From positions 1 to 64,000 of the forward strand of contig NZ_AJHJ01000025.1 of assembly GCF_000257645.1 (NCBI RefSeq): a DNA stretch of 64,000 bases. Reading direction: 5' to 3'. This DNA comes from Serratia sp. M24T3. Lineage in GTDB: Bacteria; Pseudomonadota; Gammaproteobacteria; Enterobacterales; Enterobacteriaceae. Made by a program: the position numbers and the translations under genes. The first letter of the stretch is position 1, and each line of letters opens with the position of its first letter. The notes beneath the pieces are model-generated. The model saw only the letters and a list, made by a program, of their open reading frames with translations, was not told where the DNA came from and did not search any database. Positions 30,792-51,752 of this stretch are shown one piece after another.

Positions 30792-30923
30792 GAATGGCAA
30801 ACCAGGGGGCGAAATGCCCCTTGGTGACAGCAATATTCTCTGTATCGCATCGGCTGGTTTAGATATTGGTTTTCAACAGGGCGGATTATTTAACGCGTTG
30901 GAATTCAAACGGTAATGTAATAT

Positions 30924-32531
30924 CTACGAGAATTCCTCAATGATCACAATGCCTGATTTACCGGCACTGCCTGTTTGCGCTGTACCAGAACTGGAATATG
31001 TACCACCGCCGCCTGATCCGTAAGCTTGCCCGACAGAGCCAGAACTTGAACCCGCGCGACCGCCCCCGCCCCAGAATGATGTGCCGCCGTTTCCTGCAAA
31101 GACAAAAGTACCCGACTGACCATCACTGCCATAGCCACCGCTGATATTAATGTCCCCGCCTGAAGATGCCCCTCCCACTCCTCCGGCCGATGACGCTGTA
31201 ACACCTCCGCCGCCACCGCCACCTCCGTAACCAATCAGCCCCCCATTGAACGAGGACGGGTTACCGCTGCCGCCACTGACACTTGCTCCTGCAACCGAAG
31301 TGCCACCAGCACCAATGATGACTGGATAGGTAGAACTTTGGGTAATCGCCATGGTCTTGATTGCCGTTCCTCCGGCACCGCCCCCAGCACCAGAAATAGT
31401 TTGTGCTGTCGTCGTTCCCTGACAACCACTGCCCGCACCACCGCCGCCAGTAACGGTTACGCGGATCATTTTGGTGCCGGCAGTTGGCGTGTAGGTGCCA
31501 CTGGCAGTAAACACTTTTGGCGCCCCCAGCAGCCAGCCTTTGAAGGTTCCACTGCCAATACCGAGGTTGGCTAATTGAGCACCACTTCCGGTCGTACTCA
31601 TCAGAGACCAGGCAGAGAGTGTCGCATTCCATTTAAGCACCACGCTGCCACCGGAGACAATTTCTCCACCCTTTAATGCGCCGCCGCCTACGCTGAAAAT
31701 AGGGCTTACCGTCAGGCCATTTTGAGAAAATGTAGAAGCTCCGGTATTGCTAAAGGCCGCTTTGAAGGTCAACTCCATGCCATCGGTCAGAGAAGTTATC
31801 GCCGGGCTGTAATCCACCCTATAGACGTTGGCAGAGCCAGTATCACTACCGTGGGTCAGTAATTTTTTCTGAATGCCATCAACCAGACCCGAGGCGGGAA
31901 TAAACGGCGCGCTGACTGCCAGTGAGATATTGGCTGTGGTAATTGTGGTCGCCCCCGCAGGAACGGTAATGACCCAGGCGGCAGTGTATCCATTATCAGC
32001 AGCGGGTGTGACTTGTGTCCCGGTAACGGCTGCAACACCGGCCTTAAGTGCGATTGAACACTCTCCAGAGCGAACGGTATCCTGCGTTGCACCATTTCCC
32101 TCCGGTCCGCTGTAAGCCACCGAGGGATTCCCAGAGTTGTAATACGGTAAAACCTCAGAATCGGTGTCGATGTCAGTATAAGTGACCTGGACAAGATAGT
32201 TTCTTGACTGGCCCGTGATTGCTGGTGCAGATAAAGTAAATGAGGTAGCAGAAAGAATCAGCCCCTGCTTAAGAATTGAATTAACGGTATCGGCATCCAG
32301 CGAGGAATAGGCCGTACCATCAATGTTTTCCAAACTATAAATTTCACCTTCGGCGATATTGACAGTCATCGAGGCGGGCGACGATGGCGTACATTCCAGT
32401 CCTCGAAGATAGGTTGATGAACCCATTAGTGACGCTGATAATTTAGCGAGACCAATCATGGTATTTTTATTGGTGTACAGCAGGTCTTTATCAAGCGGAA
32501 TGGCACCCGGATAAACTATTTGGCGATCCAT
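30924..32531 (-). CDS. Glycine-rich tail fibre/adhesin A
   Basis: A 535-residue protein. Residues 1-110 are an anchoring head (MDRQIVYPGAIPL ...), the middle is beta-rich, and from about residue 345 onward are long Gly-rich tracts (TGGGGAGSG, GAGGGAGG, GYGGGGGGGG) as in polyglycine adhesins that tip some phage fibres. The end KSGIVIIEEFS is typical of such tips. It likely sets the target range of the particle. It is a paralogue of the gene at 32,636, in tandem. Confidence 0.75.
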   Translation of the reverse strand: MDRQIVYPGAIPLDKDLLYTNKNTMIGLAKLSASLMGSSTYLRGLECTPSSPASMTVNIAEGEIYSLENIDGTAYSSLDADTVNSILKQGLILSATSFTLSAPAITGQSRNYLVQVTYTDIDTDSEVLPYYNSGNPSVAYSGPEGNGATQDTVRSGECSIALKAGVAAVTGTQVTPAADNGYTAAWVITVPAGATTITTANISLAVSAPFIPASGLVDGIQKKLLTHGSDTGSANVYRVDYSPAITSLTDGMELTFKAAFSNTGASTFSQNGLTVSPIFSVGGGALKGGEIVSGGSVVLKWNATLSAWSLMSTTGSGAQLANLGIGSGTFKGWLLGAPKVFTASGTYTPTAGTKMIRVTVTGGGGAGSGCQGTTTAQTISGAGGGAGGTAIKTMAITQSSTYPVIIGAGGTSVAGASVSGGSGNPSSFNGGLIGYGGGGGGGGVTASSAGGVGGASSGGDINISGGYGSDGQSGTFVFAGNGGTSFWGGGGRAGSSSGSVGQAYGSGGGGTYSSSGTAQTGSAGKSGIVIIEEFS

Positions 32532-32545
32532 TTATGTCTCCAAAA

Positions 32546-32566
32546 TAAAAAACCCGCCGCAGCGGA
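32546..32566 (-). terminator. Short hairpin and T run before fibre A
   Basis: Minus-strand CCGC/GCGG stem followed by six T, then GGAG of the next gene. It is one of several hairpin-plus-GGAG junctions in this operon. Confidence 0.5.
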
Positions 32567-32635
32567 TTTATGATTTTTAAATTTATTCAAAAAGTTGGCA
32601 CAGACTTTCTTGTGGCTGTTTGTTGGCGTGTGTAA

Positions 32636-34246
32636 TTATGCGTATTCCTCAATAACCACGATGCCCGACTTACCCGCACCGCCGGTAAAAGCAGTTCCGG
32701 TTAGTGAAGCATCATACGCACCACCACCGCCAGAGCCGAAAGCCACTCCAGCCAAACCCACCACGCCATCTGAACTGCGACCTCCACCGCCCCAATAGGA
32801 GCTGCCGCCGTTTGCTGTTAATAAAAAAGCACCGTTCTGCCCGTCGTTACCATATCCACCATCAATATTTATAACTCCGCCAGCAGCAATTCCGCCTGAA
32901 CCCCCCGCCGCACGGGTAACGGAGACAAGTTTTGCCCCTTCGCCCCCCAGTGCAGAATATAATCCAGCAAAAGAGCTGGTACCGCCGGTAGCTGCAGATG
33001 CGTTACTTGCGCCCGCGCCGCCCTTCCCGACCGTAATGGCGTAATGGCTAACTCCGGTTAGCGTAAAATAAGCGACGACTGTGGCCCCGGCACCACCGCC
33101 GCCGCCGGAGAAGGATTGCGAAGTAGTCGTGGCATTCGCGCCGCCCCCCCCGCCGCCACCGCCTGTTAAGGTGATTTTCACAAATCGGGTCCCCGAGGTC
33201 GGCGTATAGGTACCACTGGTCGTATACACTTTAGGTATACCCAACAATCCCCCTTGCAAAGATAACGAGCTCAGCCCAAGATTGGCTAATGAAGCCCCAA
33301 TTCCCGTTGAATTAATCAACATCCACGCGTCAATCGCGGCATTCCATTTAACCGTAGCGTAGCCGCCGGAAACGATTTCACCACCCGCCAGAATTAAACC
33401 CGCGATATTCACCAGTGGCGAAGCTGATAAAGAATTAACGGCCAAAGTGGTTCCGGCAGTATTGCTGCTATTTGCCAGGAAGGTCAGCTCCATGCCATCC
33501 GTCAAAGCAGTAATTGCGGGTGAAAAGTTTACGGAATAGGCATTGGTCGCGCCGGTATCAACACCGTGTGTCATCACCTTTGACTGTGCAGCATCAACTA
33601 TCCCCTTGGCCGGGAGAAAAGTTGCATCAGGAGAAACGCTAATGTTAGCAGCAGTAACAGCCGTTTCACCCTGGGCCACAGCAATGATCCAGGCTGCGTT
33701 ATATCCTTCATCTGGCAACGGCGTAGCTTGAGTGCCGGTTAATGCCGCAACGCCTTGTTTTAATGAAACGCTACATACGCCGGACCTGACGGTATTTTGC
33801 GCAGCGCTTGATCCAGCAGGCCCACTATAAGCAACGGTTGGATTCGCGGTATTATAATAGGGCAAAACGGTAGCGCCGGAATCAATATCACTGTATGTCA
33901 CTTGAACAAGATAATTAATTGAATGACCCGCAGTCTCCGGGGCCGATAGGGTAAATGATGTTGATGAAAGAATAATACCTTGTTTAAGAATTGAATTGGT
34001 TGTGTCTGCATTAATTGATGAATACGCGGTTCCATCTATATTTTGCAGACTATATATTTCGCCTTTAGCAATATCAATGGTCATTGCGGCAGAATCGGAT
34101 GGCGTACACTCCAACCCTCTAAAATAGGTCGAGCCGCCCATTATTGATGAAGACAGTTTGGCCAAACCTATTAAGGCATATTTATTGGTATTTAATAGAT
34201 CTGTTTCAAGCGGAATTGCGCCTGGATAGACGATTTGGCGATCCAT
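32636..34246 (-). CDS. Glycine-rich tail fibre/adhesin B
   Basis: A 536-residue paralogue of fibre A: same length, same start MDRQIVYPGAIPL, same GLECTPS and LPYYN(S/T) blocks, and a Gly-rich C-terminal half from about residue 350 (TLTGGGGGGGGANA, GGGGGAGATVV). The two differ most in the tip region. Either both are built into mixed particles or one is an alternative; the sequence does not show an inversion site. Upstream is a small gene at 34,341. Confidence 0.75.
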   Translation of the reverse strand: MDRQIVYPGAIPLETDLLNTNKYALIGLAKLSSSIMGGSTYFRGLECTPSDSAAMTIDIAKGEIYSLQNIDGTAYSSINADTTNSILKQGIILSSTSFTLSAPETAGHSINYLVQVTYSDIDSGATVLPYYNTANPTVAYSGPAGSSAAQNTVRSGVCSVSLKQGVAALTGTQATPLPDEGYNAAWIIAVAQGETAVTAANISVSPDATFLPAKGIVDAAQSKVMTHGVDTGATNAYSVNFSPAITALTDGMELTFLANSSNTAGTTLAVNSLSASPLVNIAGLILAGGEIVSGGYATVKWNAAIDAWMLINSTGIGASLANLGLSSLSLQGGLLGIPKVYTTSGTYTPTSGTRFVKITLTGGGGGGGGANATTTSQSFSGGGGGAGATVVAYFTLTGVSHYAITVGKGGAGASNASAATGGTSSFAGLYSALGGEGAKLVSVTRAAGGSGGIAAGGVINIDGGYGNDGQNGAFLLTANGGSSYWGGGGRSSDGVVGLAGVAFGSGGGGAYDASLTGTAFTGGAGKSGIVVIEEYA

Positions 34247-34340: not shown

Positions 34341-34619
34341 TTAAGAGTCAGAAACTAGGCTCATTTGCGGGGCAAGCATGCTGTTGAATATTCTTAACGC
34401 CCGCAGCTCTTTGTTCTCTTCAGTTTCGACTGTACCCAATACTTCGAGAAGCATATCAGTACGAGAGTAAATTGCGGTTTTTTGATCCGCATCAGAATAT
34501 ACTGTAATGACTAAAGGGTAAGATGCTCCATCAGATGCCCCTACACTGGTAATATAAGCATAGCAGCTAGAGGTAACCGTAGTTCCCGCATAAAAATCAC
34601 CGAACAAATAGTTAGCCAT
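34341..34619 (-). CDS. Small protein of unknown function in the fibre region
   Basis: A 92-residue protein starting one base after the tailspike stop, so likely co-translated. Polar, with no recognised domain (MANYLFGDFYAGTTVTSS ... LEVLGTVETEENKELRALRI). By position it might be a fibre assembly factor or a small tail tip subunit; nothing in the sequence confirms that. Confidence 0.6.
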   Translation of the reverse strand: MANYLFGDFYAGTTVTSSCYAYITSVGASDGASYPLVITVYSDADQKTAIYSRTDMLLEVLGTVETEENKELRALRIFNSMLAPQMSLVSDS

Positions 34620-34620
34620 T

Positions 34621-36831
34621 TTACATCTCCCTCCTGGAAGTCACAGTTATTAGAGCATCTGAGCCATTAATGTTTGCCGTAAGATTAAACCCGGATACAT
34701 CCAACTTGAAATAGGCCAAAGTTGATTCCTCGATACTTATAGATGTAGTAGTAACCCTTATCAGGGCTTTTGCATACTGGCTTATAATTGATGTTCCGAT
34801 TAATACCGTATAATAGTCTGGATAGAGATCATCTGTGGCAGCAGGGAATGACATGACCGTGATTTCTGTACCAACTACGGCATTATAGCTTCCCTTGGAC
34901 CCATAGAAAGCGTTGTTTCGAATTTGAACATCTTTATCGATAATTAAATTAGTTGGATAGAACTCAAATACCGGACTATTGCCATATAAATGCTTAAGGT
35001 ACCAATATGACGAAGTGGTCCCCCCCGCAATTCCAAGTCCTCTCCAGTTAATTGCGTCAACGACAGCATATGAGTTAGCACATAAAATAGTATTGGTGAA
35101 AAGATTGTGACCACTAATTCCACCTACATAAGTTGCTGCGATATTACATTTAGAAAAATCGGCCGTTCTATTTGAAATAACAATATCAAAATAATTAATA
35201 TTAACCGCTGACGTCAGTGCAATAGCGCTAATTGTTGCAGACCAACTTCCAAAGGTTATTGTGTCTCCGACTGTGTAGTCAGAGGTTCCATCTTTCTTAT
35301 TCGCACTTTCGGTGATCAGTAATACTGGATTACTATCATTTTGAACACCGTTGAACATTAGTGATGATAAGGCATATCCAGAATGAGTTCCACTGGTGAG
35401 CTTATCCCCGAATTCAACATCATAAGCTCCAGAACTAGACAAGTTTGTTAAAGTAAGAGACGATGCCCATTGGCCATTATAGTCATAAGTTCCGCCTAAA
35501 ATTTGGCTGTATTGACTTCTGTCTAGAAATAAGACACCGCCATAGCGGTTATTTGCACACCAGTTAATCTCAACCTGCAAACATTCGCCATTGCCGCCAC
35601 CATTTCCAGTACCTCCGTGTAAAACGCCCACATAACCGTCTTGCCAGTTTTCCCCACTAATATAGCTCATGCCACTTGAGAATATTTGCCCGAGATAGTC
35701 TTTATAACCAATAATAAAGTTTCGTAAAAAACCTATATGTAGATGAGAAGTATTAATCGCGGCATTGGTGGTGCTTATAGCGGAAGCGACTCCTGCACAA
35801 TCCATTGCATTGACATGAAGCTTATAAGATTCAATTTCATTGTTTGCTGGAGGTACAAAAACTGCCTGAGCATTCCACCAGTTATCAGGTACTGAAGGCC
35901 ACCCGGTAGGATCGACTTGCACGATGTTTAAATAAAGCGATGCGCCCAAACGCGTTTCCTGCCCAGAAACCACAGGATCATGATAGCCCGATAACAGGGT
36001 AATTTGACTTTTAACCGAGTATATACCGTCACCACGTACCTGGTCAGTGTGGGCCACAAAGGCTGCCGAAATAGCATAGTTTATTGCAGCAGAGTCATCC
36101 GCAGAACCATCCCCCATCGCGCCAAACATTTCCGGGGTATAGTAATAATCAATAACACGTTTCCAATACCATGAGGAATTAACCACACAAACAGAACCAT
36201 TATCTTCTGTGACCGTGCTCTGAAATGGAACAGCAACGAATTTTCCCCCACCTTTTGCAGAGCCGGTTGCAGCCTTATCATAGTAAGATTTTAAAAGTAT
36301 GGGTTGTCCAGCATAGGATGGTACAACCTGTTTCAGTGCGGCATATGACGCAACCTGCCCGGTGTATTTAAATCCCTCACTGGTAGCCAATTCAGAACGA
36401 AAGACTGAATCACCAACAACGGCCCAGTATCCTTCGCCATAGCCATCGTCACCAGGGCTGGAACCCGCCGCCACCGTTTTGGGGTAAGCCCCCGTCCAGT
36501 AGTATAAGTTTGCACCGTCATTGATCTGGTCAAGAAGAGAAGTCAGCGTTGCCCCGTCTGCAAAGGTTTTACTGCCTTTTATCGCAGCAGCCAATGTCGC
36601 CGATGTCTCATTCGCAGAGTTTTCGGCCTCGGCTGCCGCCTGCTGAGCAAGCGTAACCGCATTCTGCGCCGAAGTACTGTTTGAGGCCGCTGTGTCTGCC
36701 GATTGTGCAGCGCTTAAACTGTAGCCATTGATCTCGTCAATCTTGGCTGTAACCGCGCTGTCGAGATCGGCTTTATTGGCCAAATCGTTTAATTCAGCCG
36801 CGGTCAAAAGTTGACCATCAGTAAATGCCAT
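34621..36831 (-). CDS. Tailspike with pectate-lyase-type beta helix
   Basis: A 736-residue protein. Residues 1-95 are an alanine-rich helical head (AAQSADTAASNSTSAQNAV) like those joining fibres to baseplates. At about residues 235-255 the motif EMFGAMGDGSADDSAAINYA is the classic entrance of phage right-handed beta helices of the Pectate_lyase_3 type; repeated short beta coils follow. Such spikes often bind and cut surface polysaccharide. Position after the gpI-like baseplate gene fits a receptor-binding protein. Confidence 0.8.
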   Translation of the reverse strand: MAFTDGQLLTAAELNDLANKADLDSAVTAKIDEINGYSLSAAQSADTAASNSTSAQNAVTLAQQAAAEAENSANETSATLAAAIKGSKTFADGATLTSLLDQINDGANLYYWTGAYPKTVAAGSSPGDDGYGEGYWAVVGDSVFRSELATSEGFKYTGQVASYAALKQVVPSYAGQPILLKSYYDKAATGSAKGGGKFVAVPFQSTVTEDNGSVCVVNSSWYWKRVIDYYYTPEMFGAMGDGSADDSAAINYAISAAFVAHTDQVRGDGIYSVKSQITLLSGYHDPVVSGQETRLGASLYLNIVQVDPTGWPSVPDNWWNAQAVFVPPANNEIESYKLHVNAMDCAGVASAISTTNAAINTSHLHIGFLRNFIIGYKDYLGQIFSSGMSYISGENWQDGYVGVLHGGTGNGGGNGECLQVEINWCANNRYGGVLFLDRSQYSQILGGTYDYNGQWASSLTLTNLSSSGAYDVEFGDKLTSGTHSGYALSSLMFNGVQNDSNPVLLITESANKKDGTSDYTVGDTITFGSWSATISAIALTSAVNINYFDIVISNRTADFSKCNIAATYVGGISGHNLFTNTILCANSYAVVDAINWRGLGIAGGTTSSYWYLKHLYGNSPVFEFYPTNLIIDKDVQIRNNAFYGSKGSYNAVVGTEITVMSFPAATDDLYPDYYTVLIGTSIISQYAKALIRVTTTSISIEESTLAYFKLDVSGFNLTANINGSDALITVTSRREM

Positions 36832-36888: not shown

Positions 36889-37632
36889 TTACCACTGCGA
36901 ATATTCCAGCAGTAATGACTCATCGAGGGTGAAATCAATCCCCAGGCGGGGATAGCCGTCAGTGCGATGCGATAATATTTTGACCCACACCAGCGTGCCT
37001 TCCATTTTCACCGAGGCAATAGCCTCATAAATCTGCGCATCCGTTATCAAACCGCTGATCATGTCTTGCGAGGCGTACTCGCCGCGTGATGCGTCGCTAT
37101 AACCTGCCGAAGCGGCGTTGTAACCGGCAACATAGGGAATTCCCGAACCGTCGGGCCGATAAGCGGTAACGAAAGCCTGATAAGGGATCAGGATGGAGCC
37201 ATATCCGCCCGCCAAACCGTAGGCGAGAGTCGGGCTTGCGTAGGCCCCCGTGTCCTGCGGTCTTGAAGGTTCAAAGATGTCGGGAGACTTGCCGGTCAAA
37301 TCCTCAAGGATATTGATTATCGACTGGCGCGTCCCTCGTTCGCGGAACAGGTTGGTGTGGATGGTATTGCGAAAAAGTTCGTCCGATTGGCCAGCAGAAC
37401 GGCTCAGATTTTTACCGAAAAAATCATAAGCAGCGATATCCAGCCAGCCGTCGGTCGCCGTGTTGATACGGGTTTGCAGTTTTGCATACCGGTATAGTGA
37501 ATAACACCAGGCCAGCGACGTGGCGCAGCCGGTGAGGATCGCATCTCTAATCGGGCTGCTGTCCCCATACCAGGTCGGAGGAATAAGCGCCTTGAGACGA
37601 CTTAACATATCTTGGGAATCGCCCGTCGCCAT
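36889..37632 (-). CDS. Baseplate/tail protein, Mu gp48 / P2 I position
   Basis: A 247-residue protein immediately following gpJ (adjacent stop and start). The region LSRSAGQSDELFRNTIHTNLFRERGTRQSIINILEDLTG resembles baseplate wedge proteins of the gpI type that join wedges to fibres. The assignment rests mainly on position between J and the tailspike. Confidence 0.6.
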   Translation of the reverse strand: MATGDSQDMLSRLKALIPPTWYGDSSPIRDAILTGCATSLAWCYSLYRYAKLQTRINTATDGWLDIAAYDFFGKNLSRSAGQSDELFRNTIHTNLFRERGTRQSIINILEDLTGKSPDIFEPSRPQDTGAYASPTLAYGLAGGYGSILIPYQAFVTAYRPDGSGIPYVAGYNAASAGYSDASRGEYASQDMISGLITDAQIYEAIASVKMEGTLVWVKILSHRTDGYPRLGIDFTLDESLLLEYSQW

Positions 37633-43751: not shown

Positions 43752-43773
43752 AGACCACCTCATGCGTAGCAAT

Positions 43774-43800: not shown

Positions 43801-43856
43801 TGTTGATAACCGTATCGAAGTGCGAGCTTTCTGGCCGGAGATTTCTGCCGGTATCG

Positions 43857-44039
43857 TCAGCTCGGCTCCTCAAACTGTTTTGTCGCCCAGTTAAACTTGT
43901 TGCCCTCAAATTCGCTAAACACGATAGCCATCGCGAATCTTTCATGTGGCAAAAGTTCGGTGATGTTGAATACGATATGGAAAGGAACCCCATTTTTCAT
44001 CAACCAGCATTGATTGCGAAACTCGGGGTTCCGGGCTAG
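43857..44039 (-). CDS. Tail assembly chaperone extension read by -1 frameshift (GT part)
   Basis: A 60-codon frame, LARNPEFRNQ to KQFEEPS, lying in the -1 frame straight after the slippery heptamer A-AAA-AAC at 44,045-44,039 of the upstream chaperone gene. It has no upstream start in its own frame (first ATG at codon 14). The arrangement, between tube and tape measure genes, is the G/GT frameshift of lambda and the E/E' of P2. The fusion would be 185 residues. Confidence 0.75.
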   Translation of the reverse strand, partial: LARNPEFRNQCWLMKNGVPFHIVFNITELLPHERFAMAIVFSEFEGNKFNWATKQFEEPS

Positions 44040-44426: not shown

Positions 44427-44858
44427 TCAGGATACGCGGATGCGGCGCTGTGCGGTGAAGGTCATTGACTGGCGAACAGTCTGATCGCCCGACTTCTTGC
44501 CCGGTTCGCTGAAGTGGACCTGCACGTTGGTATAACGCCACACGCTGACTGAACCATTCACTTCTTCGACGGTTTCAGTAATGGTGCCCGCCGCGCGGTT
44601 AACGCCGTTGTAATAGTCGGCTTCCCACTGCGCCCACCAGGCGTCGAGGGTTGCATCCTGCCGTTCGGCTTCGATGGTCCCGCTCCAGTTTTTGGGGATC
44701 AGCAGTTCATCGGTCAGGCCAGTCAGCGGCGTGATAACCAGGCTGCTAACGCTGGGTTTGGCTTCAAAGCTGATAACCTGCGGAATACGCAGAGTTCCAT
44801 AGGCGGTAACGATATCGACTGCGATATCGCGGCCAAGAGTGTATCCATTTTGCGGCAT
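44427..44858 (-). CDS. Tail tube protein
   Basis: A 143-residue protein following the sheath gene. The pattern of a beta-rich domain with LIPKNWSGTIEAERQDATLDAWWAQWEADYYNG and a conserved end QSMTFTAQRRIRV fits tube proteins of contractile tails. It would polymerise around the tape measure. Confidence 0.75.
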   Translation of the reverse strand: MPQNGYTLGRDIAVDIVTAYGTLRIPQVISFEAKPSVSSLVITPLTGLTDELLIPKNWSGTIEAERQDATLDAWWAQWEADYYNGVNRAAGTITETVEEVNGSVSVWRYTNVQVHFSEPGKKSGDQTVRQSMTFTAQRRIRVS

Positions 44859-44905: not shown

Positions 44906-46462
44906 TTAGTTGGACGCTGAATTAGAAACCGAGATGGAGACGCTACCGCCGCCTTCGAGGTTAATCAGGAAATAACGCACTACGTTGAGGTATTTGACGG
45001 CGACATCGGCTTGCATGTAACCGAGTGCTACCTGAGAGTCTGAGTTATTGGTCGAATCCAGAGTGACAGAGAAGGACGCGCCGCCGTTCGGGTCGCCAAT
45101 CATCCCCTGATCGTCAAGGTTTTGCAGGAACGCCTCAATAGTGCTTTTGGTTTCACGACGCAGGTCGGCAGTCTGGTTTTGGCCTACGACATCGCCAAAG
45201 CTCGCCGCCAGAGTCAGTGACAAATAGTTGGTCATGCGAGTGTAGGTATCATCATTCTGACTGGCGGTGGAGCTGGTATTACGGCCAGAGCGGATACCAA
45301 AATAATTGCCACCCGGGCATGGGTTGGTAATTACGTCCAAACGTGCCGAGTTGATTGAACCAATTTCTGACAGCGAGTAAGGCTGGTTAGCCAGACTGCG
45401 CTGGGTAGAAACGATGGTGCTAATCGACTTGTTGAGAGTTGACACGCTCGGACTACGAGAGGCGATATTGGCCGCCTCGAAAGTTGCCGGTTCAACCATG
45501 CGGGTCAGGCCGTTAACGCTGTCCAGCCAGTAGGTCCAGTCGCCGACCATCGCCTTGAAGTTCCAGCTGTCGACACCGGCAGCGGTGAGCAGAGTTGCCG
45601 CAGTGGAATAAGTGGTGCCTGCCGTGAACTGCGAGACTGCGTAGGAGCCTTCGCTGGCGGCAAAGGTATTCACTGTCGGCCACAGGGTCGAGGTGGTCAG
45701 ACCGACCAGATTGATCACCTGCGAGTTGGTGCCGCGAAGAGCGTACATGCCTTTACGGGTCGTGCTGCTGCCGTCGATGCCAATCAGCATAGTATCGCTA
45801 ATAGAATCAACACCATCAGTGCCGCCCACCAGTGTGTAAGTCGCCGTTACGTCCGGCAGTGCAGTACTTGAACCCAGGGTCGCAATGGCCAACTGGCTTG
45901 CGCCGCGCACGCTGGTCTGACCGTTATTCACCGCGCTGACCAAATTCGACCAGAAGGCCGCACCGGTACCGGTGATGTTGTCGAACACTTCGGCGGTTTG
46001 CCCAGGCAGATAAATAGTCAACTTGTACGAGTTGGCCGCGGTGCCGCCAGTAATCATCGCCTGAATGCTGTTACCGGTAGTGCCGCTGTAAATCGCAGTC
46101 AGCGTAACGCCGGCAACCGGGCTGCTTGCCGCATCATTTAACGCAACGCTGGCGGCAATGTCGGTGCCGTCGGTGACACGAACGCAGTTCAGATTAGTCG
46201 CCCCCAACTGTAGGGAGATCGCTACCGCAGTGGCAAGATCGTATTTACGGTTCTGCTGACTGCCAATATACAGCGCCTGATCGCTGGCTGAACCAATCTG
46301 GAACGGGCTGTTAACCGGGCCCCAGCTCGCGATACCAACCAGCCCAAGGCCGTCAGTAGCAACGCCGTTAATGTATTGCGTCGTGGGTGCAACAACCTGG
46401 ACGTATAAGTCTGGCGCGGTCAGCGCAGAGGTGTTCAAACTGCCAGCTTGATAAATCGGCAT
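44906..46462 (-). CDS. Contractile tail sheath protein
   Basis: A 518-residue sheath protein. It has the sheath start PIYQAGSLNTSALTAPDLYVQVV, the conserved core GLVGIASWGPVNSPFQIGS, and the C-terminal block LAASFGDVVGQNQTADLRRET with VAVKYLNVVRYFLINLEGG. Its presence makes this a contractile, R-type particle. ATG 46,462 follows GGAG; an ATG four codons upstream is less likely. Confidence 0.88.
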   Translation of the reverse strand: MPIYQAGSLNTSALTAPDLYVQVVAPTTQYINGVATDGLGLVGIASWGPVNSPFQIGSASDQALYIGSQQNRKYDLATAVAISLQLGATNLNCVRVTDGTDIAASVALNDAASSPVAGVTLTAIYSGTTGNSIQAMITGGTAANSYKLTIYLPGQTAEVFDNITGTGAAFWSNLVSAVNNGQTSVRGASQLAIATLGSSTALPDVTATYTLVGGTDGVDSISDTMLIGIDGSSTTRKGMYALRGTNSQVINLVGLTTSTLWPTVNTFAASEGSYAVSQFTAGTTYSTAATLLTAAGVDSWNFKAMVGDWTYWLDSVNGLTRMVEPATFEAANIASRSPSVSTLNKSISTIVSTQRSLANQPYSLSEIGSINSARLDVITNPCPGGNYFGIRSGRNTSSTASQNDDTYTRMTNYLSLTLAASFGDVVGQNQTADLRRETKSTIEAFLQNLDDQGMIGDPNGGASFSVTLDSTNNSDSQVALGYMQADVAVKYLNVVRYFLINLEGGGSVSISVSNSASN

Positions 46463-46520: not shown

Positions 46521-46736
46521 TTATGCTGCGCGTTTAATCACATAGACAGCGAGTTCGCCAGCGAGAATGTCTTTAATTTCATCCTCATCGGTTATCTCGT
46601 CGCCGACCTGATAATCTGCAAATGCAAAGCGGGTGACCAAGATAAAGCCGAGGCTTGAAGCCACTGCTGCCGAGGATGAAGCTGCGCTTGCGGGCGCAAT
46701 AGTGCCTGACGCGTTAACGTCATCGGTATCTGCCAT
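46521..46736 (-). CDS. Small hypothetical tail-operon protein
   Basis: A 71-residue protein, Ala/Ser-rich at the start and acidic later (GDEITDEDEIKDILAG). Found between the putative terminator protein and the sheath. No function recognised; similar small genes sit at this place in Mu-like tail operons. Confidence 0.6.
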   Translation of the reverse strand: MADTDDVNASGTIAPASAASSSAAVASSLGFILVTRFAFADYQVGDEITDEDEIKDILAGELAVYVIKRAA

Positions 46737-46752: not shown

Positions 46753-47547
46753 TTAGAGGGGTTGGGTGTAGTCGTTGATGCTAATAACCGGTGCCACTAC
46801 CTGTGGCGCCGAGAGGGTTTGCGAGGTGGCGTAGTTCACCGAAAAAACGATGTCGCGCCGGTAAATCTGGGTGTCCTGGGAAAACATCGAGCGGGAATAA
46901 ATCATAAACGCCGGCAGGTTGTCAGACAGCTGTAGATTGCTGTTTATTGACAGTCCTGAATCCAGCGCACTGCCTAAACTATCGCGCAGCGCGGTAGTTG
47001 GCGCCCAGACAGTGACCATGAACTCCTTGGTTTGTCTGCGTAGCTCGCGCGCCTGTGAACCGACTCCCCCGATTCTGGCAATAATCTCAATCGCCTGCGG
47101 TATGGAGATGACGGCATCAACGTTGCTGGCGGCAGGGATAAGCGTCGACATCGCGGTGGCAATTGTCGTCAGCGTGTCATCGGACTGCACGGCGTAGTGA
47201 TACCCGGTGCCATCGACCAGAAGGTAAACGTTCTGCGGCGTCGATACCGTGCCAGAAAGTGTGACAGATGAATCACTTACCGTCGCAACGATCGTGGGGT
47301 CCCCGCTTTCCACTTCCCGATAGGGCCGCCCCAGCGCGGTGGGAATTTTTTGCTCTCCATCCAATGGAAATACCGAGATGTGTGAGGTTCCGGCCAGAAT
47401 GTCAGTATTAAGCACACTATGTACGGGCCAGCCTGCGTAAACATTGAGTGCCGTGCCGGAAATGCTGGCCGAACTCGTGCCGTTTGGGTAGACAATTGCG
47501 GCTACCTGCGCCGCAATGACATTGAGTATTTCTGATGGATCAGCCAT
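46753..47547 (-). CDS. Tail protein, possible tail terminator
   Basis: A 264-residue protein just upstream of the sheath operon. The last third (ELRRQTKEFMVTVWAPTT ... MFSQDTQIYRRDIVFSVNY) resembles tail terminator or completion proteins that cap the tube and sheath. In a headless particle such a cap is what replaces the neck. The assignment is inference from position and weak similarity. Confidence 0.5.
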   Translation of the reverse strand: MADPSEILNVIAAQVAAIVYPNGTSSASISGTALNVYAGWPVHSVLNTDILAGTSHISVFPLDGEQKIPTALGRPYREVESGDPTIVATVSDSSVTLSGTVSTPQNVYLLVDGTGYHYAVQSDDTLTTIATAMSTLIPAASNVDAVISIPQAIEIIARIGGVGSQARELRRQTKEFMVTVWAPTTALRDSLGSALDSGLSINSNLQLSDNLPAFMIYSRSMFSQDTQIYRRDIVFSVNYATSQTLSAPQVVAPVISINDYTQPL

Positions 47548-47668: not shown

Positions 47669-47917
47669 TTACTGGGCGGCGGAATTGTCTTTTCTGGAAG
47701 AAAGATAAGTGCGAAGCATTTCAGTACGCTTCTCGTCCTCGTTCTGTTTTGCCTTAAGAGCCTGTCGATTGCCCAGGTAGGAACCAAACGACAAAAGCGC
47801 GCCAAAGATGGCACAAAATACGTAAATCCACTGTTCAGTGGTCAACCCTGCCGCGCTGGCCAAAGCTGTAACCGTGGCCCAATAGTGAGTCCAAAATCCG
47901 TCACCGTTTTGGTTCAT
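47669..47917 (-). CDS. Holin-like small membrane protein
   Basis: An 82-residue protein with one clear membrane segment (QWIYVFCAIFGALLSFGSYL) and a basic, charged C-terminus, as in small holins. It lies at the front of the late operon, where lambdoid phages keep lysis genes. No endolysin gene is found beside it. ATG 47,917 has GGAG eight bases before; a frame start at 47,962 is abutted by a terminator and unlikely. Confidence 0.6.
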   Translation of the reverse strand: MNQNGDGFWTHYWATVTALASAAGLTTEQWIYVFCAIFGALLSFGSYLGNRQALKAKQNEDEKRTEMLRTYLSSRKDNSAAQ

Positions 47918-47962
47918 CTCATTGTCTCCAACGCCAACCGTTGTTAGGTGTGCTGTAGTCAT

Positions 47963-47985
47963 AAAAAAAGCTCACCGAGGTGAGC
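47963..47985 (-). terminator. Terminator just upstream of the holin-like gene
   Basis: Minus-strand GCTCAC-CTCG-GTGAGC then seven T. Confidence 0.85.
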
Positions 47986-48104
47986 CTTAGAGTTGGATAT
48001 TTCGCATACGTAATGAGGAGAGTGCTTTTAAATAATCGCCCTTGTTAAAGGGAGATTAAAAAGATTGTAGGGTGAGCAATAAACGTAGCCCGATTTTGCA
48101 TACG

Positions 48105-48131
48105 AAAAAGCCTCTGCATTTCTGCAAAGGC
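48105..48131 (-). terminator. Late-leader terminator (tR'-like)
   Basis: Minus-strand GCCTTTGCA-GAAA-TGCAGAGGC with one mismatch, then five T. The loop and flanks GCAGAAATGCAG resemble the terminator downstream of Q in prophage 1 (161-182). Confidence 0.75.
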
Positions 48132-48194
48132 CTCTAAATTTGTTCGGCGCTGAAGTTTTAATGAAATGCTAAAACTTAAACCGTTAATTTGTCA

Positions 48195-48332: not shown

Positions 48333-48361
48333 AATATACAGCTTCATTTCTTATTTGGCAA
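48333..48361 (-). promoter_or_regulatory. Late promoter pR'-like
   Basis: Minus strand: -35 TTGCCA (48,361-48,356), 17-base spacer, -10 TATATT (48,338-48,333). Thirty bases after the Q-like gene stop, the usual place of a Q-controlled late promoter. Confidence 0.7.
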
Positions 48362-48390: not shown

Positions 48391-48999
48391 TTAATTGTGG
48401 GTAACTTCTACCTCTAAAAGGCGCTTCATTGCAAAAAACAACTCTTCCTCCAGTATCTCTTCACACCACGTCACGCGCTTTCGGGCAGCCTGAATATCAA
48501 AGCCGGTGTGGTAGTTAATATCTTGCGCGATATTTTGGACTGTGCGGCGATCGCAATAGCGTTTAATAGCAATTGAGCGAATCGGACTATCGCGCTTAAT
48601 TTCTTTATGCATCACTGATTCGACAAAAGCCGCATCCTCGGTTTCTGAAAATGAAGCGAATATGCCGTTTATCGAAGCACCAGGCAGGACTATCCCTCGC
48701 GCAACGTTGAACAGCTCTTCACCCCGATAACCCCGGCTGTAGAGATCTTTTACGACATTAATAATTCTTTCGGCCTGATCGTGGCTCCATTCGGAACGGA
48801 TCATCAAGCGGCCTATCACGTTGACACAACCTGCCGGTGCATCATCGCCTCCTAAATGCTTGCCCCATAGAGACAGCATGTAGCGCGTCCACACTCGTTG
48901 AGAAGGGGTGATGGTCTTGCGACCACGACACCACACCCGGCGCAAGTCTGCTTGTTTTAAAATCATCGGCAGTGTGTAAATGGCGTCTTGTTTTCTCAT
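48391..48999 (-). CDS. Q-like late antiterminator candidate (DUF1133-like)
   Basis: A 202-residue protein. The order WTRYMLSLWGKHLGG ... NVIGRLM, then EDAAFVESVM and a C-terminal helix-turn-helix-like block AIKRYCDRRTVQNIAQDI followed by ARKRVTWCEEILE is shared with DUF1133 phage proteins found at the Q position. It stands at the end of the short right operon and directly before the late promoter, so a Q role is likely, not proven. Confidence 0.65.
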   Translation of the reverse strand: MRKQDAIYTLPMILKQADLRRVWCRGRKTITPSQRVWTRYMLSLWGKHLGGDDAPAGCVNVIGRLMIRSEWSHDQAERIINVVKDLYSRGYRGEELFNVARGIVLPGASINGIFASFSETEDAAFVESVMHKEIKRDSPIRSIAIKRYCDRRTVQNIAQDINYHTGFDIQAARKRVTWCEEILEEELFFAMKRLLEVEVTHN

Positions 49000-49084: not shown

Positions 49085-49291
49085 TCAAATGATTTTTCCA
49101 AGGGCGCTCAGCCAGCGACTGCTAGGTCTGGGGCGCCGAGGGGTTTCTTCAAGATACGCGGACACGCTCCAGGACAATCTGTCTGGGTTAAGTTGCCTGC
49201 GGGTCTGGATGTTGCGCGATTGATACTGGAGGATTAATTCGTCGGCTTCTGCCGAAGTGAGATCATCATAAAAAAACCAGCTTCGTTTCAT
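49085..49291 (-). CDS. Small phage protein, first gene of the tailocin right operon
   Basis: A 68-residue protein (MKRSWFFYDDLTSAEADELI ...) with a WSVSAYLEETPRRPRPSSRW tail that I recognise only as a recurrent phage ORF type. AGGGGG precedes ATG 49,291. It occupies the position of cro but has no helix-turn-helix pattern. Confidence 0.6.
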   Translation of the reverse strand: MKRSWFFYDDLTSAEADELILQYQSRNIQTRRQLNPDRLSWSVSAYLEETPRRPRPSSRWLSALGKII

Positions 49292-49401
49292 ATGGCCCCC
49301 TTGGCCCATGCCTGGCGTAAAGCTTTACCCTGTTGGTTTGCTCTATTGATTTGGGCTTTAACAGGGTCTTGAATTCTTTAAATTCGCTTTGCAGCGACGT
49401 A

Positions 49402-49429
49402 GGACATGAGGTCCGTTGTTTAAAGAGCG
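49402..49429 (-). promoter_or_regulatory. nutR-like site of the tailocin
   Basis: Minus-strand BoxA CGCTCTTTAAACA (49,429-49,417) followed after two bases by a BoxB-like hairpin GGAC-CTCAT-GTCC (49,414-49,402) with a five-base loop. It lies between the right promoter and the first gene of the right operon. Confidence 0.65.
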
Positions 49430-49526: not shown

Positions 49527-49569
49527 GTACTTTAAGTACATATTACAATTGTACTGAAAGTTTTTACAA
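49527..49569. promoter_or_regulatory. PR-like promoter and operators of the tailocin
   Basis: Minus-strand promoter TTGTAA (49,569-49,564), 16-base spacer, TGTAAT (49,547-49,542). Operator-like sites GTACTTTAAGTAC (49,527-49,539, near-perfect palindrome) and GTACTGAAAGTTT (49,551-49,563), 24 bases apart. A related GTACT sits at 49,583 across the repressor start. Confidence 0.6.
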
Positions 49570-49588
49570 GAGGTTTATTATCGTACTC

Positions 49589-50269
49589 ATGGTTCGAACT
49601 GAAAAATTGCGTGAAGAATTTGCTCAGAGGCTTGCGCAAGCCTGTAAAGATGCTGGGCTCGACGAACACGGACGCGGGATGGCTTTATCCCGTGCGACAG
49701 GCCTTTCATCGAAAGGCGTCAGCAAATGGTTAAATGCCGAATCGTTACCGCGCCCCGCAGTGATGGCAGAATTGGCCAAGTTTCTAAAAGTTGACCCGGT
49801 GTGGTTACAGTTAGGAATTACTACCGGTGAAAACAGTAACGTTTCAAACTTCAGGCCATACACCCGTGGGGCAACCTATCCGGTACTCAGCAAGGTGCAG
49901 GCCGGAGCCTGGGACGAAGCCATTGAAGCCTACAGTCTTAAAGAAATCGATTTGTGGCTTGAATCAGAAGCCCATATACAAGGCGAAGGATTCTGGCTGC
50001 TGGTTGACGGCGATTCAATGACCGCGCCAATGGGCCTGAGTATTCCTGAAGGTACTTTCGTTCTCTTTGATACGGGTAAAGAAGCCACCAACGGAAAACT
50101 GGTGGTCGCTAAACTCACGGACTTTAACGAAGCGACATTCAAGAAGTTTGTGATCGACAGCGGGCAAAAATACCTTAAAGGGCTTAATCCTGCATGGCCA
50201 ATGGTTCCTATCAACGGTAATTGCCGGATTATTGGCGTCGCCGTTGAGACCAAGCTTAGGCTGCTGTAA
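49589..50269 (+). CDS. LexA/CI-type repressor of the tailocin (XRE plus S24)
   Basis: A 226-residue repressor. XRE-type helix-turn-helix at residues 15-70 (MALSRATGLSSKGVSKWLN). The S24 self-cleaving domain has Ser143 in DGDSMTAP and Lys175 in LVVAKL; the cleavage pair is Ala105-Gly106 (VQAGAW). This makes the locus inducible by DNA damage. AAGAGG is 16 bases before the ATG, so translation may be weak. A strong terminator follows at 50,299. Confidence 0.88.
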   Translation: MVRTEKLREEFAQRLAQACKDAGLDEHGRGMALSRATGLSSKGVSKWLNAESLPRPAVMAELAKFLKVDPVWLQLGITTGENSNVSNFRPYTRGATYPVLSKVQAGAWDEAIEAYSLKEIDLWLESEAHIQGEGFWLLVDGDSMTAPMGLSIPEGTFVLFDTGKEATNGKLVVAKLTDFNEATFKKFVIDSGQKYLKGLNPAWPMVPINGNCRIIGVAVETKLRLL

Positions 50270-50529: not shown

Positions 50530-50556
50530 GCTCTTTAGAACGGTGCATATCACACC
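50530..50556 (+). promoter_or_regulatory. nutL-like site of the tailocin
   Basis: BoxA-like GCTCTTTAGAA (50,530-50,540) followed by a small stem GGTG/CACC (50,542-50,555). Lies upstream of the N-like gene. Confidence 0.5.
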
Positions 50557-50640
50557 CACGTGGCTGAAAAGCCAATCAAAATGCTAAGCAACCATTTGGT
50601 TCAGCAAGCTATTTTTCTCTACACGACCCAGGAGATCAAC

Positions 50641-50907
50641 ATGACTCGCAAGACTCCATTTAATGGAACAGCGGCCACTCGACGTCGCGAAAGCCGCCAA
50701 CATTTGCAAACGCTGGCGGTTAACGACTTCAGCAAAGAATTGAATGTTACGCCGGGACGACCCAGCCGTGCCGAACTCAGCTGCAAGCGCAAACCGGTAA
50801 ACCGGGTTGATAAAGCGTTGTCAGTCCGCGAGACGCGTTATTACCCCAGCGCTGACAATCTTTGCCTGCCTCAGGTCGCCCTCTTCGCCGTCGCGCCTCG
50901 AAAATAG
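50641..50907 (+). CDS. N-like antiterminator (P22 gp24-like)
   Basis: An 88-residue basic protein. It has an arginine-rich motif near the start (AATRRRESRQHL) comparable to lambda N (QTRRRERRA), KRKPVNRVDKAL comparable to lambda N NRKPKSRVESAL, and an end LPQVALFAVAPRK comparable to P22 gp24 (LPGVALYAAGHRK). N binds BoxB RNA and turns RNA polymerase into a terminator-resistant form. AGGAG precedes ATG 50,641. It is the first gene after the nutL-like site. Confidence 0.8.
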   Translation: MTRKTPFNGTAATRRRESRQHLQTLAVNDFSKELNVTPGRPSRAELSCKRKPVNRVDKALSVRETRYYPSADNLCLPQVALFAVAPRK

Positions 50908-50999: not shown

Positions 51000-51236
51000 A
51001 TGACTATCGATAATGGCGGGCAAGCCTTTGCGCGGCCCTACAGCAAAGACGACTGGCTCGAAGAGCACAACTATGCGCAAGACGGTATGACTCTGCGCGA
51101 CTATCTGGCAACCAACGCCATGCTGGGCGCGATTATCACACAGGGTAGCGCGATGACTTCATCTAACTATGGCGACTTGAGTGAGGCCGCATACGCCATC
51201 GCCGATGCAATGATTACGGAAAGAAATAAGTCATAA
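51000..51236 (+). CDS. Small hypothetical phage protein
   Basis: A 78-residue protein of a common phage type: TIDNGGQAFARPYS ... QDGMTLRDYLATNAMLG ... EAAYAIADAMITER. The GMTLRDYxA and AYxIADAM blocks recur in early phage genes of unknown function. Ribosome site AAGGA before ATG. Confidence 0.75.
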   Translation: MTIDNGGQAFARPYSKDDWLEEHNYAQDGMTLRDYLATNAMLGAIITQGSAMTSSNYGDLSEAAYAIADAMITERNKS

Positions 51237-51292
51237 AAACATGGCGAGCCTCGTTGAATCGAGGCTTATTGCCGCGGGTAAAAGAGGTTTCA

Positions 51293-51490
51293 ATGAACAA
51301 ATTTGATGAGTATATGAATGAATACATTGAAGATGTTAGCGGAAGAATAATTAAGAGAAGGCATTCAATGAGCCTGCCTCGCGTTGAGTTTATCAGAGCG
51401 TTTTTTGATGATGTCTATCAACGGGGTTACGACGAAGCAATTGAAAATAAAACGATGACAGTGAAAAGCAGGAGGCAATCTCATGGCTGA
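51293..51490 (+). CDS. Small hypothetical left-operon protein
   Basis: A 65-residue protein beginning MNKFDEYMNEYIEDVSGRI, charged, no recognised domain. AGAGG lies before ATG 51,293. It overlaps the next gene by eight bases. Confidence 0.55.
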   Translation: MNKFDEYMNEYIEDVSGRIIKRRHSMSLPRVEFIRAFFDDVYQRGYDEAIENKTMTVKSRRQSHG

Positions 51491-51698
51491 TATTATTGAC
51501 GAGGCAACCGCTGAATTTGAGCATCATCTCAATGCAGCAATAGCTAATCGCGCTAAACCCACCCCGCCTTCCACGATTTGCAAAAACGGCGACTGTGGTG
51601 AGAAGTCTTTGGCTGGCACAAGTTATTGCTGTCGTGAGTGCAGAGAAGATCATGAGAAAGAGCTGTGGGCCAGGAATAATCGTAAGATATTCCGATGA
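51483..51698 (+). CDS. TraR/DksA-type C4 zinc-finger protein
   Basis: A 71-residue protein. The start ADIIDEATAEFEHHLNAAIANR and the CKNGDC ... SYCCREC zinc finger are typical of small phage TraR/YbiI-like proteins, which mimic DksA and bind in the RNA polymerase secondary channel. Here the finger is somewhat irregular, so activity is uncertain. It is the last gene of the locus. Confidence 0.75.
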   Translation: MADIIDEATAEFEHHLNAAIANRAKPTPPSTICKNGDCGEKSLAGTSYCCRECREDHEKELWARNNRKIFR

Positions 51699-51722
51699 TG
51701 GCAATGGAGTTTTATAGTCACC

Positions 51723-51752
51723 AAATGGGCCAAACTTTAGCCCATTTTGTTT
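51723..51752. terminator. Terminator between tailocin and ycgN
   Basis: AAATGGGC-N9-GCCCATTT then TTG-TTT; convergent with ycgN, likely working for both. Confidence 0.75.

Follow-up and report, generated by a model that had tools for sequence, protein, structure and literature searches.

We identified a contractile-tail module with open genes, located between iraP and ycgN at positions 30924 to 51698 of a 64,000-nucleotide stretch of DNA (the window) from Serratia sp. M24T3, a Rouxiella-type bacterium. The locus is most probably an SOS-induced R-type tailocin derived from a headed temperate contractile phage, and it probably functions as a weapon against other bacteria. The tail genes lie on the − strand; the repressor, N and three accessory ORFs lie on the + strand. 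Family searches (Pfam, PHROG) covered 25 locus ORFs, a set that leaves out overlapping opposite-strand ORFs. The tail structural genes are:

30924..32531, − strand: tail fibre paralogue 2, 535 aa (PF21722, 2.9e-10; phrog_6202, 7e-49)
32636..34246, − strand: tail fibre paralogue 1, 536 aa (PF21722, 1.5e-11; phrog_863, 1.5e-52)
34341..34619, − strand: 92 aa protein adjoining the spike (no Pfam or PHROG match)
34621..36831, − strand: tailspike, 736 aa, pectate-lyase-like body (PF18668, 2.5e-10; phrog_20911, 5.6e-50)
36889..37632, − strand: baseplate protein at the gpI/gp48 position, 247 aa (phrog_26379, 6.6e-102; phrog_7378, 8.4e-8)
37633..38760, − strand: baseplate wedge J (PF04865, 8.4e-33)
38765..39130, − strand: gp25-like sheath initiator (PF10934, 7.7e-4, below cut-off; phrog_120, 7.6e-8)
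39142..39738, − strand: spike, gpV/gp45-like (PF04717, 5.9e-6)
39735..40850, − strand: baseplate hub, gp44-like (phrog_52, 5.3e-38)
40853..41899, − strand: gpU/LysM-like tail protein, 348 aa (phrog_21362, 1e-97; phrog_76, 1.3e-4)
41910..43772, − strand: tape measure protein (position; long ORF matched in G298, G296, L089, L010 and others)
44036..44413, − strand: tail assembly chaperone position, 125 aa (position; phrog_20383, 8.6e-12, function not annotated)
44427..44858, − strand: tail tube by position, 143 aa (phrog_12993, 8.5e-46, function not annotated)
44906..46462, − strand: contractile sheath, 518 aa when read from its ATG (phrog_23, 4.5e-38)
46521..46736, − strand: 71 aa gene, flanked by the 264 aa gene and the sheath (same-place matches in L010, L015, L020, L092)
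46753..47547, − strand: 264 aa protein, a proposed tail terminator and the first of the retained structural genes (phrog_13532, 1.8e-78)

The gene set of a contractile tail is complete, in part by family and in part by position and homology. The original prediction of a headless contractile-tail locus was borne out by family matches to the sheath, J, gp25-like, hub, spike, tailspike and fibres; its tube, chaperone, tape measure and gpU/LysM-like calls agree with position and with matches to the genes that occupy the equivalent place in relatives of the locus. By profile comparison the sheath matches sheath proteins of solved structure (8bky, 3.6e-15); it also reaches PF17482 below cut-off (1.4e-4), and a tube-matching ORF was resolved downstream of the sheath in 159 loci. 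The hub resembles the 43 kDa tail protein of prophage MuSo2 (3cdd, 0.0028), and the gpU/LysM-like protein reaches PF06995 GpU below cut-off (0.0072), its phrog_21362 family having no annotated function. A likely ATG start gives a tape measure of 613 aa, for which Pfam and PHROG returned no family match. At the I position, phrog_26379 has no annotated function and phrog_7378 is a baseplate family; weak 'head and packaging' matches (phrog_2386, 8.5e-4; phrog_4411, 0.0087) rank behind both. The tailspike matches the solved tailspike 5w6h (1.5e-13) and, below cut-off, PF12708 (2.2e-4). The two fibre paralogues are 59% identical, and paralogue 2 has a glycine-rich C-terminal domain. The 92 aa protein is possibly a spike accessory; it has no match in G298 or G296, where two other small ORFs are found instead. 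The 264 aa protein is likely the tail terminator. The assignment of tube, tape measure, chaperone and terminator by position counts against the tailocin reading. A contractile tail with a large spike, accompanied by small ORFs of no assigned function, could also belong to an extracellular contractile injection system whose task is to deliver a protein effector, as opposed to a pore-forming tailocin. A scan of the 25 ORFs for the AAA+ ATPase and cargo toxin of Afp/PVC-type systems found no AAA+ ATPase and no toxin-like family, and the control region is of lambdoid phage type, making such a system highly improbable.

As predicted, the 25 ORFs match no capsid, portal, terminase, integrase or replication family, and 13 head-protein queries found no match in the window by tblastn. 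Scoring related loci as headed if at least one of the 13 head proteins matched (tblastn, E ≤ 1e-5), we found a head match in 130 of 165 loci of sheath relatives, 128 of them to a capsid; among the capsid queries, the P22-annotated Pantoea/Aquitalea type scored best in 63 loci, the phiKX1 type in 65. Thirty-one of the 35 loci with no head match have less than 5 kb upstream, and four have more (L009, L020, L022, L023). Homologues of the 264 aa gene were the only head-side queries matched in the window, L009, L089, L020, L022 and L023. The sheath tree has headless loci at four positions, all of them cut directly before the 264 aa gene. A single clade of headless loci was tried on the sheath tree and ruled out (p-AU 1.3e-5). 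Headed contractile temperate phages and prophages among the relatives include Komagataeibacter phiKX1 and phiKX2, the 54-kb plasmid of Aquitalea sp. USM4 and prophages on Pantoea megaplasmids, with sheaths 40–65% identical to that of the window; identity reaches 79% in headed viral contigs. They have the same tail gene order as the window. On the upstream side of the sheath they encode terminase, portal and capsid, where the window has Q and the holin, and extra genes separate their chaperone from their tape measure. Mitomycin-induced particles of the phiKX1 strain are described as myovirus-like, with 98.9 nm tails for three particles (PMC8566455); phiKX1 is a distant sheath relative, and this observation speaks for the tailocin reading. 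The placing of most sheath relatives in headed temperate contractile-phage loci and the four tree positions of headless loci are new here, and the locus would have evolved by loss of head, packaging, integration and replication modules.

The same genome holds other prophages, one of them on a contig with terminase- and portal-like ORFs seen by eye, and therefore head genes of other lineages exist there; a lambdoid early region is also seen by eye at 1–13 kb of the window. The tails might then be joined to heads of another resident prophage and contribute to transducing particles. A capsid profile was positive in three headed control genomes (L010 and L021 are rows of the profile itself, and only L011 is independent) and in 0 of 6 genomes with headless loci, and a capsid of the lineage fitting these tails was found in none of G000, G298 and R. 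badensis. Headed relatives have a gene before the 264 aa gene; it is still matched in L155, L031 and L006 and is unmatched in the window, and we consider a role as tail donor very unlikely. A Terminase_6N search was empty and also missed the terminase of the resident prophage, and therefore excludes little.

Upstream of the tail genes lies a control region. In lambda and P22 the layout consists of a repressor, pL and N with nutL, pR with nutR, Q, and pR' with leader terminators. The corresponding features of the window are:

47669..47962, − strand: holin (phrog_1350, 1.4e-17)
47967..47988, − strand: terminator hairpin and T run directly before the holin (scan)
48105..48132, − strand: tR'-like leader terminator (four-locus alignment; stem by eye, absent from the terminator scan)
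48333..48361, − strand: late promoter pR', TTGCCA-17-TATATT (10/12 consensus matches)
48391..48999, − strand: Q antiterminator (phrog_753, 6.5e-50)
49085..49291, − strand: early ORF of 68 aa in the interval from nutR to Q (phrog_1212, 2.4e-19, function not annotated)
49384..49428, − strand: nutR, boxA GCTCTTTA, boxB TCGCT-GCAA-AGCGA
49527..49588, − strand: pR/operator region, four GTAC sites (seen by eye)
49589..50269, + strand: S24-type repressor (PF00717, 7.8e-23; PF01381, 9.2e-6; phage relatives)
50450..50479, + strand: pL-like promoter, TTGCCA-18-AATATT, beside GTAC sites (9/12 consensus; conserved stretch)
50530..50574, + strand: nutL, boxA GCTCTTTA, boxB TGGCT-GAAA-AGCCA
50641..50907, + strand: N antiterminator, 88 aa (PF25694 (N_peptide), 3.8e-15; phrog_271, 5.8e-16)
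51000..51698, + strand: three small accessory ORFs beyond N (phrog_2201, 3.2e-15; phrog_54, 2.6e-9)

A self-cleaving repressor, N-like and Q-like genes, nut-like sites and a late promoter had been predicted. The S24 family of the repressor was confirmed, N scored 56.6 bits against a PF25694 cut-off of 27.9, Q matched its family, and two strict nut sites were found, one with boxA and boxB in each early leader. Residues 11–62 of N match the solved N protein 5lm7 weakly (E 0.29). The 64-kb window has three strict nut-like sites, whereas 60 simulated sequences of 64 kb averaged 0.08 and never had more than 1; the third is in an apparent lambdoid prophage early region (by eye). In nutR, ACGTCGCTGCAAAGCGAATT is identical in the window, G298, G296 and L089; in nutL, GCTCTTTA and ACGTGGCTGAAAAGCC are identical in the window, L089 and G296, within an alignment of 433 columns (gaps counted) that shows agreement at 212 and 210 of them. 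Q is 54% identical to its nearest phage record. The promoter scan alone is weak because it found 7 promoter-like sites in the region versus 5.9 expected; support for the late promoter comes from its −10 region and downstream sequence, conserved in G298, G296 and L089, where the −35 is conserved only in TTG. The two nut sites, the late promoter region and the leader terminator are kept across ∼25% DNA divergence, and the Q gene, pR' and leader terminators form a putative lambdoid Q module. R. badensis has extra ORFs before Q, one of them resembling NinH. The last accessory ORF beyond N is DksA-like and the middle one has no clear match. The circuit had been called complete, which goes beyond what was matched: the repressor, N, nut sites, Q and pR' were found, and the locus gave no match to a cro or cII family (Pfam, PHROG). 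The single early ORF, of 68 aa, may act in the Cro role, which is possible because the function of phrog_1212 is not annotated. The window shares the lambda and P22 layout; searches of its copy gave no family match for cro, cII, O or P, and unlike theirs its control region serves a tail-only operon. Pyocin control is by PrtN and PrtR and is not known to use N and Q. The repressor, N, nut, Q, late-promoter and terminator elements of the window largely support an R-type tailocin with two-step antitermination.

Three of six genomes from the genus carry the tail locus. It occupies the same iraP–ycgN site in G298, and its fibre-side flank is common to G296; the site is empty in G297 and G299 and no sheath was found in G295, so the locus is not fixed there, a question the original prediction had raised. 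Tail genes have full-length matching ORFs in G298 and G296 except for the spike, the 92 aa gene, the tape measure and the second fibre, with hubs 4–7 residues shorter. All 26 comparisons (15 genes) gave dN/dS of 0.028–0.240, 24 of them for 14 − strand genes and 2 for the repressor, in a set that leaves out the spike, tape measure, second fibre, holin and N. Values were 0.04–0.05 for Q, 0.03 for the repressor and 0.083 for fibre paralogue 1 versus G296. The tested genes are under purifying selection, and the locus is maintained rather than decaying. Compared with G298, tailspike residues 1–54 are 98% identical and the body is 25% identical over 405 residues, suggesting that the spike body was exchanged within the species and the anchor preserved. 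In G298 the counterpart of fibre paralogue 2 is broken up by an insertion carrying transposase-like ORFs, which counts against the tailocin reading. That interruption, the descent from a headed phage lineage and the lack of an endolysin in the cluster would suit a degraded prophage, decaying after deletion of head and replication genes and with no selected function. Open tail genes of matching length, the low dN/dS in every comparison, the conserved nut sites and late promoter region, a spike exchange that preserves the anchor, and the recurrence of the same cut in headless loci at other tree positions all argue against decay, which we regard as unlikely.

The holin is the only recognised lysis gene of the cluster: no endolysin or spanin/Rz family was recognised among the 25 ORFs, a feature on which the original prediction is silent, and the muralytic enzyme that is a usual, non-defining part of tailocin clusters is absent. 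The same genome has, at another position, a separate cassette of repressor, Q, holin, lysozyme and Rz genes. At least its Q-to-Rz part is found in 3 of 3 tailocin-carrying Rouxiella genomes; the cassette is also in 2 of 3 Rouxiella genomes with no tail locus, which counts against the tailocin reading. Tentatively, the locus could be a two-locus tailocin, released through this second repressor/Q/holin/lysozyme/spanin locus, in a headed lineage turned tailocin at least four times, although we hold this combined reading to be rather doubtful. The conversions it supposes are in beta- and gammaproteobacteria, with the same gene boundary each time, just before the tail terminator.

Carotovoricin of Pectobacterium is described as a headless contractile tail with a spike, fibres and a recombining fibre region, encoded at one chromosomal site, flanked by tolC_2 and ybiB; 428 of 454 genomes have it, and its cluster includes a lytic transglycosylase (PMC13195805). 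Set beside it by description, the window has another site and no such enzyme of its own. Enterocoliticin of Yersinia enterocolitica 29930 is described as a headless tail with an 80 nm relaxed sheath, a Mu-like tail gene order, a CI-annotated repressor and two Q-annotated genes (PMC13030884). It is like the window, by description and not by sheath sequence, in having repressor and Q genes beside a headless tail; N and nut sites, both present in the window, do not figure in the portion of its published description available to us (PMC13030884). No link to these two bacteriocins, which the original prediction had given as known examples of such loci, was seen, judged by description; the sheath relatives are headed contractile phages of a P22-annotated or phiKX1-type capsid lineage. 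The R-type pyocin of P. aeruginosa and the R-type tailocin of P. syringae are reported as contractile tails co-opted independently, from P2 and Mu respectively, and released by lysis (PMC12090994), and the pyocin cluster holds a lysin (PMC8609362). Carotovoricin and pyocin clusters, as described, carry wall enzymes and the window carries none, which counts against the tailocin reading.

For the tailocin, we propose that DNA damage probably flips a lambda-style switch. In the uninduced cell the repressor, as its family and the layout suggest, would hold pL and pR; upon damage RecA would trigger its self-cleavage, as expected of S24 proteins. Transcription from pL would yield N, which would load at nutL and nutR and let polymerase read through to Q, and Q would carry polymerase from pR' past the leader terminators into the holin and tail operon. 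Sheath, tube, tape measure and baseplate would form a ∼80 nm tail, with the 264 aa protein as its cap where a phage would have its head. The holin would open the membrane, and a wall-cutting enzyme would come from another locus, such as a resident prophage or the separate lysis cassette, which is itself present in the genome and would cooperate with the tail locus. Spike and fibres would then attach to a surface structure on cells of a related strain, and the contracting tail would kill them.

With this locus, the phage lineages that seem to have given rise to tailocins increase by one. Headed sisters persist in Pantoea, Aquitalea and others, and headless loci are cut alike; therefore the steps from phage to weapon are directly comparable. 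If the two-locus reading is true, the tail operon gave up its own endolysin and the second locus is repressed separately; release would need that locus, and therefore two independent SOS switches would both have to fire before a cell commits to lysis. The tailocin that the window is proposed to encode would depend for its production on antitermination by both N and Q, and perhaps on lysis genes of another locus, a dependence that bears on how producers limit suicide to few cells.

The window carries a contractile-tail cluster at 30924-51698, between iraP and ycgN. We listed the ORFs in the window and scanned 25 from the locus with Pfam and PHROGs. The headless contractile-tail locus that the original prediction placed at 30912-51750 is borne out: tail families are present, and capsid, portal, terminase, integrase and replication families had no match among the 25 ORFs. 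The genes run from holin to fibres in what we take to be the order of phage Mu, gp37 to gp49.

Gene order of the tail cluster
From 47962 downward, minus strand: holin, 264 aa gene, 71 aa gene, sheath, tube-position gene, chaperone-position gene, tape measure-position gene
Down to 30924, minus strand: gpU/LysM-like gene, hub, spike, gp25-like gene, J, I-position gene, tailspike, 92 aa gene, two fibres

The scan gave family support for the sheath, hub, spike, gp25-like protein, J, tailspike and fibres. The putative tube, tape measure, chaperone and tail terminator (the 264 aa protein) were called from their position and their homology to related loci. Two head-and-packaging PHROGs match the I-position protein weakly (8.5e-4 and 0.0087). 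PDB profile searches returned nothing useful for the tube-position protein and short weak matches to sheath proteins only for the 264 aa protein. A frameshift in the tape measure gene was considered since orf77 (43760-43993) and the tape measure ORF both match one ORF of the related locus L089; no break was seen, and in the alignment the tape measure ATG is shared and orf77 runs in another frame across the end of the chaperone-position gene. The overlap of orf77 with the 3′ end of the chaperone-position gene makes a frameshifted chaperone extension possible.

The sheath matches 3 of 50,697 phage records, all at less than 60% identity, and 9 plasmid records. A P2-like origin was ruled out, as the sheath relatives are other headed phages; PF04984 had no match in a profile search of the window's genome. 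Terminase, portal and capsid genes lie upstream of the sheath in the annotated phiKX1, Pantoea dispersa, Aquitalea and P. agglomerans records, and were not seen in the decayed-looking Paraburkholderia record L006. This small circular record, a 27.6 kb plasmid of Paraburkholderia sp. SOS3, holds a tyrosine integrase and broken pieces of tail genes of this family, and has the look of a relative in decay. Two Pantoea megaplasmids (L003 and L005) carry related prophages with head, tail, antitermination, holin and lysozyme genes; the L005 stretch has umuC and ycgZ nearby and no annotated integrase, in an incomplete plasmid gene table.

We sampled the best 80 of 200 confirmed loci on genome contigs and the best 80 of at least 588 on viral contigs, and listed 165 loci with a sheath match, leaving out the window and three short loci of its genus. 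A head protein was matched in 130 of the 165 (capsid in 128, portal in 117, TerL in 93). Another 31 without a head match cannot be judged because less than 5 kb lies upstream; one of these, L089, has its repressor, small ORF, Q, holin and 264 aa gene arranged as in the window. The remaining four have no head match.

Headless loci with at least 5 kb upstream
L009: Rouxiella badensis
L020: Paludibacterium sp.
L022: Pseudogulbenkiania sp.
L023: Herbaspirillum sp.

A capsid profile matched three headed control genomes (two of them rows of the profile itself) and none of the six genomes with headless loci. Searching the window's own genome with one capsid, without a control, gave no match. Upstream of their tail genes, L020 and L022 encode CI-like repressors (phrog_4, E 4e-45 and 1.4e-40); by eye, host-like ORFs lie further out. 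L023 is surrounded by phage-like ORFs, none a recognised head gene, with an endolysin-looking ORF downstream (by eye). The tail type of these three loci is the same as the window's, and L022 has two similar fibre ORFs with a small ORF after each (by eye).

The headless loci are cut at the same place. Of the queries drawn from the head side, the window, L009, L089, L020, L022 and L023 matched none but the 264 aa gene's homologues. L155, L031 and L006 still have a match to the gene lying before the 264 aa gene in headed phages. Headless loci from different parts of the sheath tree thus keep the 264 aa gene without the genes before it, as expected if the 264 aa protein is the tail terminator, the last protein that a free tail needs.

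For the sheath tree, 162 sheaths passed a length and open-frame filter (128 headed, 6 headless, 28 undecided), and 107 were included: all those with at least 52% identity, L002, and every sixth of the remainder. The window, L089, L009 and two undecided contigs (L090 and L091) form a fully supported clade within headed phages. The other three headless loci are placed apart: L022 is next to L021, which is headed, and L023 neighbours L155, which has TerL as its sole head match. At least four changes between headed and headless are needed in this quick tree, undecided rows not being counted. A single origin of all headless loci was rejected (p-AU 1.3e-5), on the same quick tree with long end branches for L022 and L023.

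The cluster was also predicted to keep a complete lambda-style control circuit. The N, nut sites, Q, late promoter and terminators of that circuit were recovered by sequence; cro and cII had no family match in the locus (Pfam, PHROGs).

Control region
Plus strand: repressor (S24, HTH), pL-like promoter, nutL, N
Minus strand: pR region, nutR, 68 aa ORF, Q, late promoter, leader terminators

N scored 56.6 bits against a cut-off of 27.9. Each nut site consists of GCTCTTTA and, 23 bases on, a 5-bp stem closed by a loop of GAAA or GCAA. The 64 kb contain three matches to the strict pattern, whereas 60 simulated sequences averaged 0.08. The third site, at 7162, falls by eye within an apparent lambdoid prophage early region. 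That region (1-13247) includes a Q-like gene (428-850), CI/Cro-like genes and an integrase-like ORF (12033-13247), all by eye, and an STnc100 sRNA match lies at 1-156. The nutL boxB core and boxA are identical in the window, L089 and the congeneric genome G296, in an alignment with about half of its columns in agreement, and control-region DNA identity is ∼75% to L089 and 72-73% to G296. Around the nutR boxB, 20 bases are identical in four loci (window, G298, G296 and L089); in L089 and G296 the final base of the nutR boxA is T, not A. All four loci also conserve the first leader terminator and the late promoter's −10 region, and TTG alone of the −35. A promoter scan found 7 sites with 5.9 expected, alone no better than chance.

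The best phage matches are at 44% for N (17 records) and 54% for Q (30 records); the repressor reaches 63% among the phage matches listed, and 3 of 456 records, outside those listed, are at 80-90%. Of the 165 listed sheath loci, just L009 and L089 have matches to the repressor, Q and holin of the window, which suggests that the control and tail modules were joined from different phage backgrounds.

The sole lysis gene of the cluster is a single holin; no endolysin or Rz was recognised among the 25 ORFs (Pfam, PHROGs). The genome has three phage-lysozyme matches, none on the window's contig. Two sit in prophage-like contexts (by eye), and the third in a compact cassette.

Lysis cassette, contig 21 (L199, 2855-6663)
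S24 repressor (1.3e-27), Q (PF06530, 1.2e-48), 136 aa protein
Holin (phrog_1350, 3.3e-19), lysozyme (1.4e-39), Rz (phrog_214, 1e-30)

The cassette adjoins FUSC-type genes, and no head or tail genes were seen beside it in 14 kb of contig 21. It matches in five of six genomes of the genus, 3/3 with the tail locus and 2/3 without, ruling out that it is exclusive to tail-locus genomes; in G296 it is seen from Q onward only, where the contig begins. The cassette may serve the putative tailocin; resident prophages could also be its lysis source. In G297 and G299 the cassette has two extra ORFs (399-412 aa) after Q and before the small gene; they look Ig-like by eye, and G296 has other such ORFs.

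The nearest named locus is that of R. badensis DSM 100043 (sheath 91%, among the best 80 of 200 confirmed loci). The sheath occurs in 3/6 genomes of the genus (the window's, G298, called the same species, and G296), in 6/392 of the family (three in this genus, three in other genera), and in 1/295 sampled genomes of the order, the window's own (E≤1e-10). The locus lies between iraP (PF10796) and ycgN in G298 as in the window. In G296 the fibre-side flank is the same, and the site is common on one side and open on the other because the ycgN side sits on a separate contig starting 580 bases before the match. Comparison of this site in sister genomes had been proposed as a check on whether the locus is fixed. 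It is not fixed in the genus: iraP adjoins ycgN across a short intergenic stretch in G297 and G299, and G295 lacks the sheath and has different sequence beside ycgN. Elsewhere in the window (56809-62569), ParA-, DnaB- and ParB-like ORFs past minD/minE-like ORFs look by eye as if an integrative element starts there.

We calculated dN/dS for the window against G296 (13 genes) and L089 (11 genes), covering 14 different minus-strand genes, and for the repressor against both. Values were 0.028-0.240 in 26/26 comparisons, some of them saturated because dS spans 0.30 to 3.05. The tailspike is 98% identical to that of G298 over residues 1-54, and the body differs (25% over 405 residues); the spikes of G298 and G296 share 83% identity over 637 residues. 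The two fibres share 59% identity, and one G298 fibre is interrupted by an insertion with transposase-like ORFs.

Enterocoliticin has a tail of Mu-like type, a repressor annotated as CI and two genes annotated as Q (PMC13030884), so a tailocin with a repressor and Q has been published before. Searches of open-access papers on tailocins and antitermination turned up neither N nor nut sites at such a locus. Repeated independent origin of tailocins is established (PMC12090994). Treated with mitomycin C, the phiKX1 host yielded particles whose heads measured 65.6 nm and whose tails measured 98.9 nm, and the same paper predicted phiKX1 to be incomplete (PMC8566455). If tail length is proportional to the tape measure (a 742 aa ORF at that position in phiKX1, 613 aa here), the window's tail would be about 80 nm long. 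The open-access literature searched, as far as its available text goes, does not name the source phage lineage as a source of tailocins. The locus is a real, selected, headless contractile-tail locus. Judged from its genes and sites, it has putative elements for antitermination by N and Q and a reduced control region, lacks a recognised endolysin of its own, and is most likely an SOS-induced R-type tailocin candidate.
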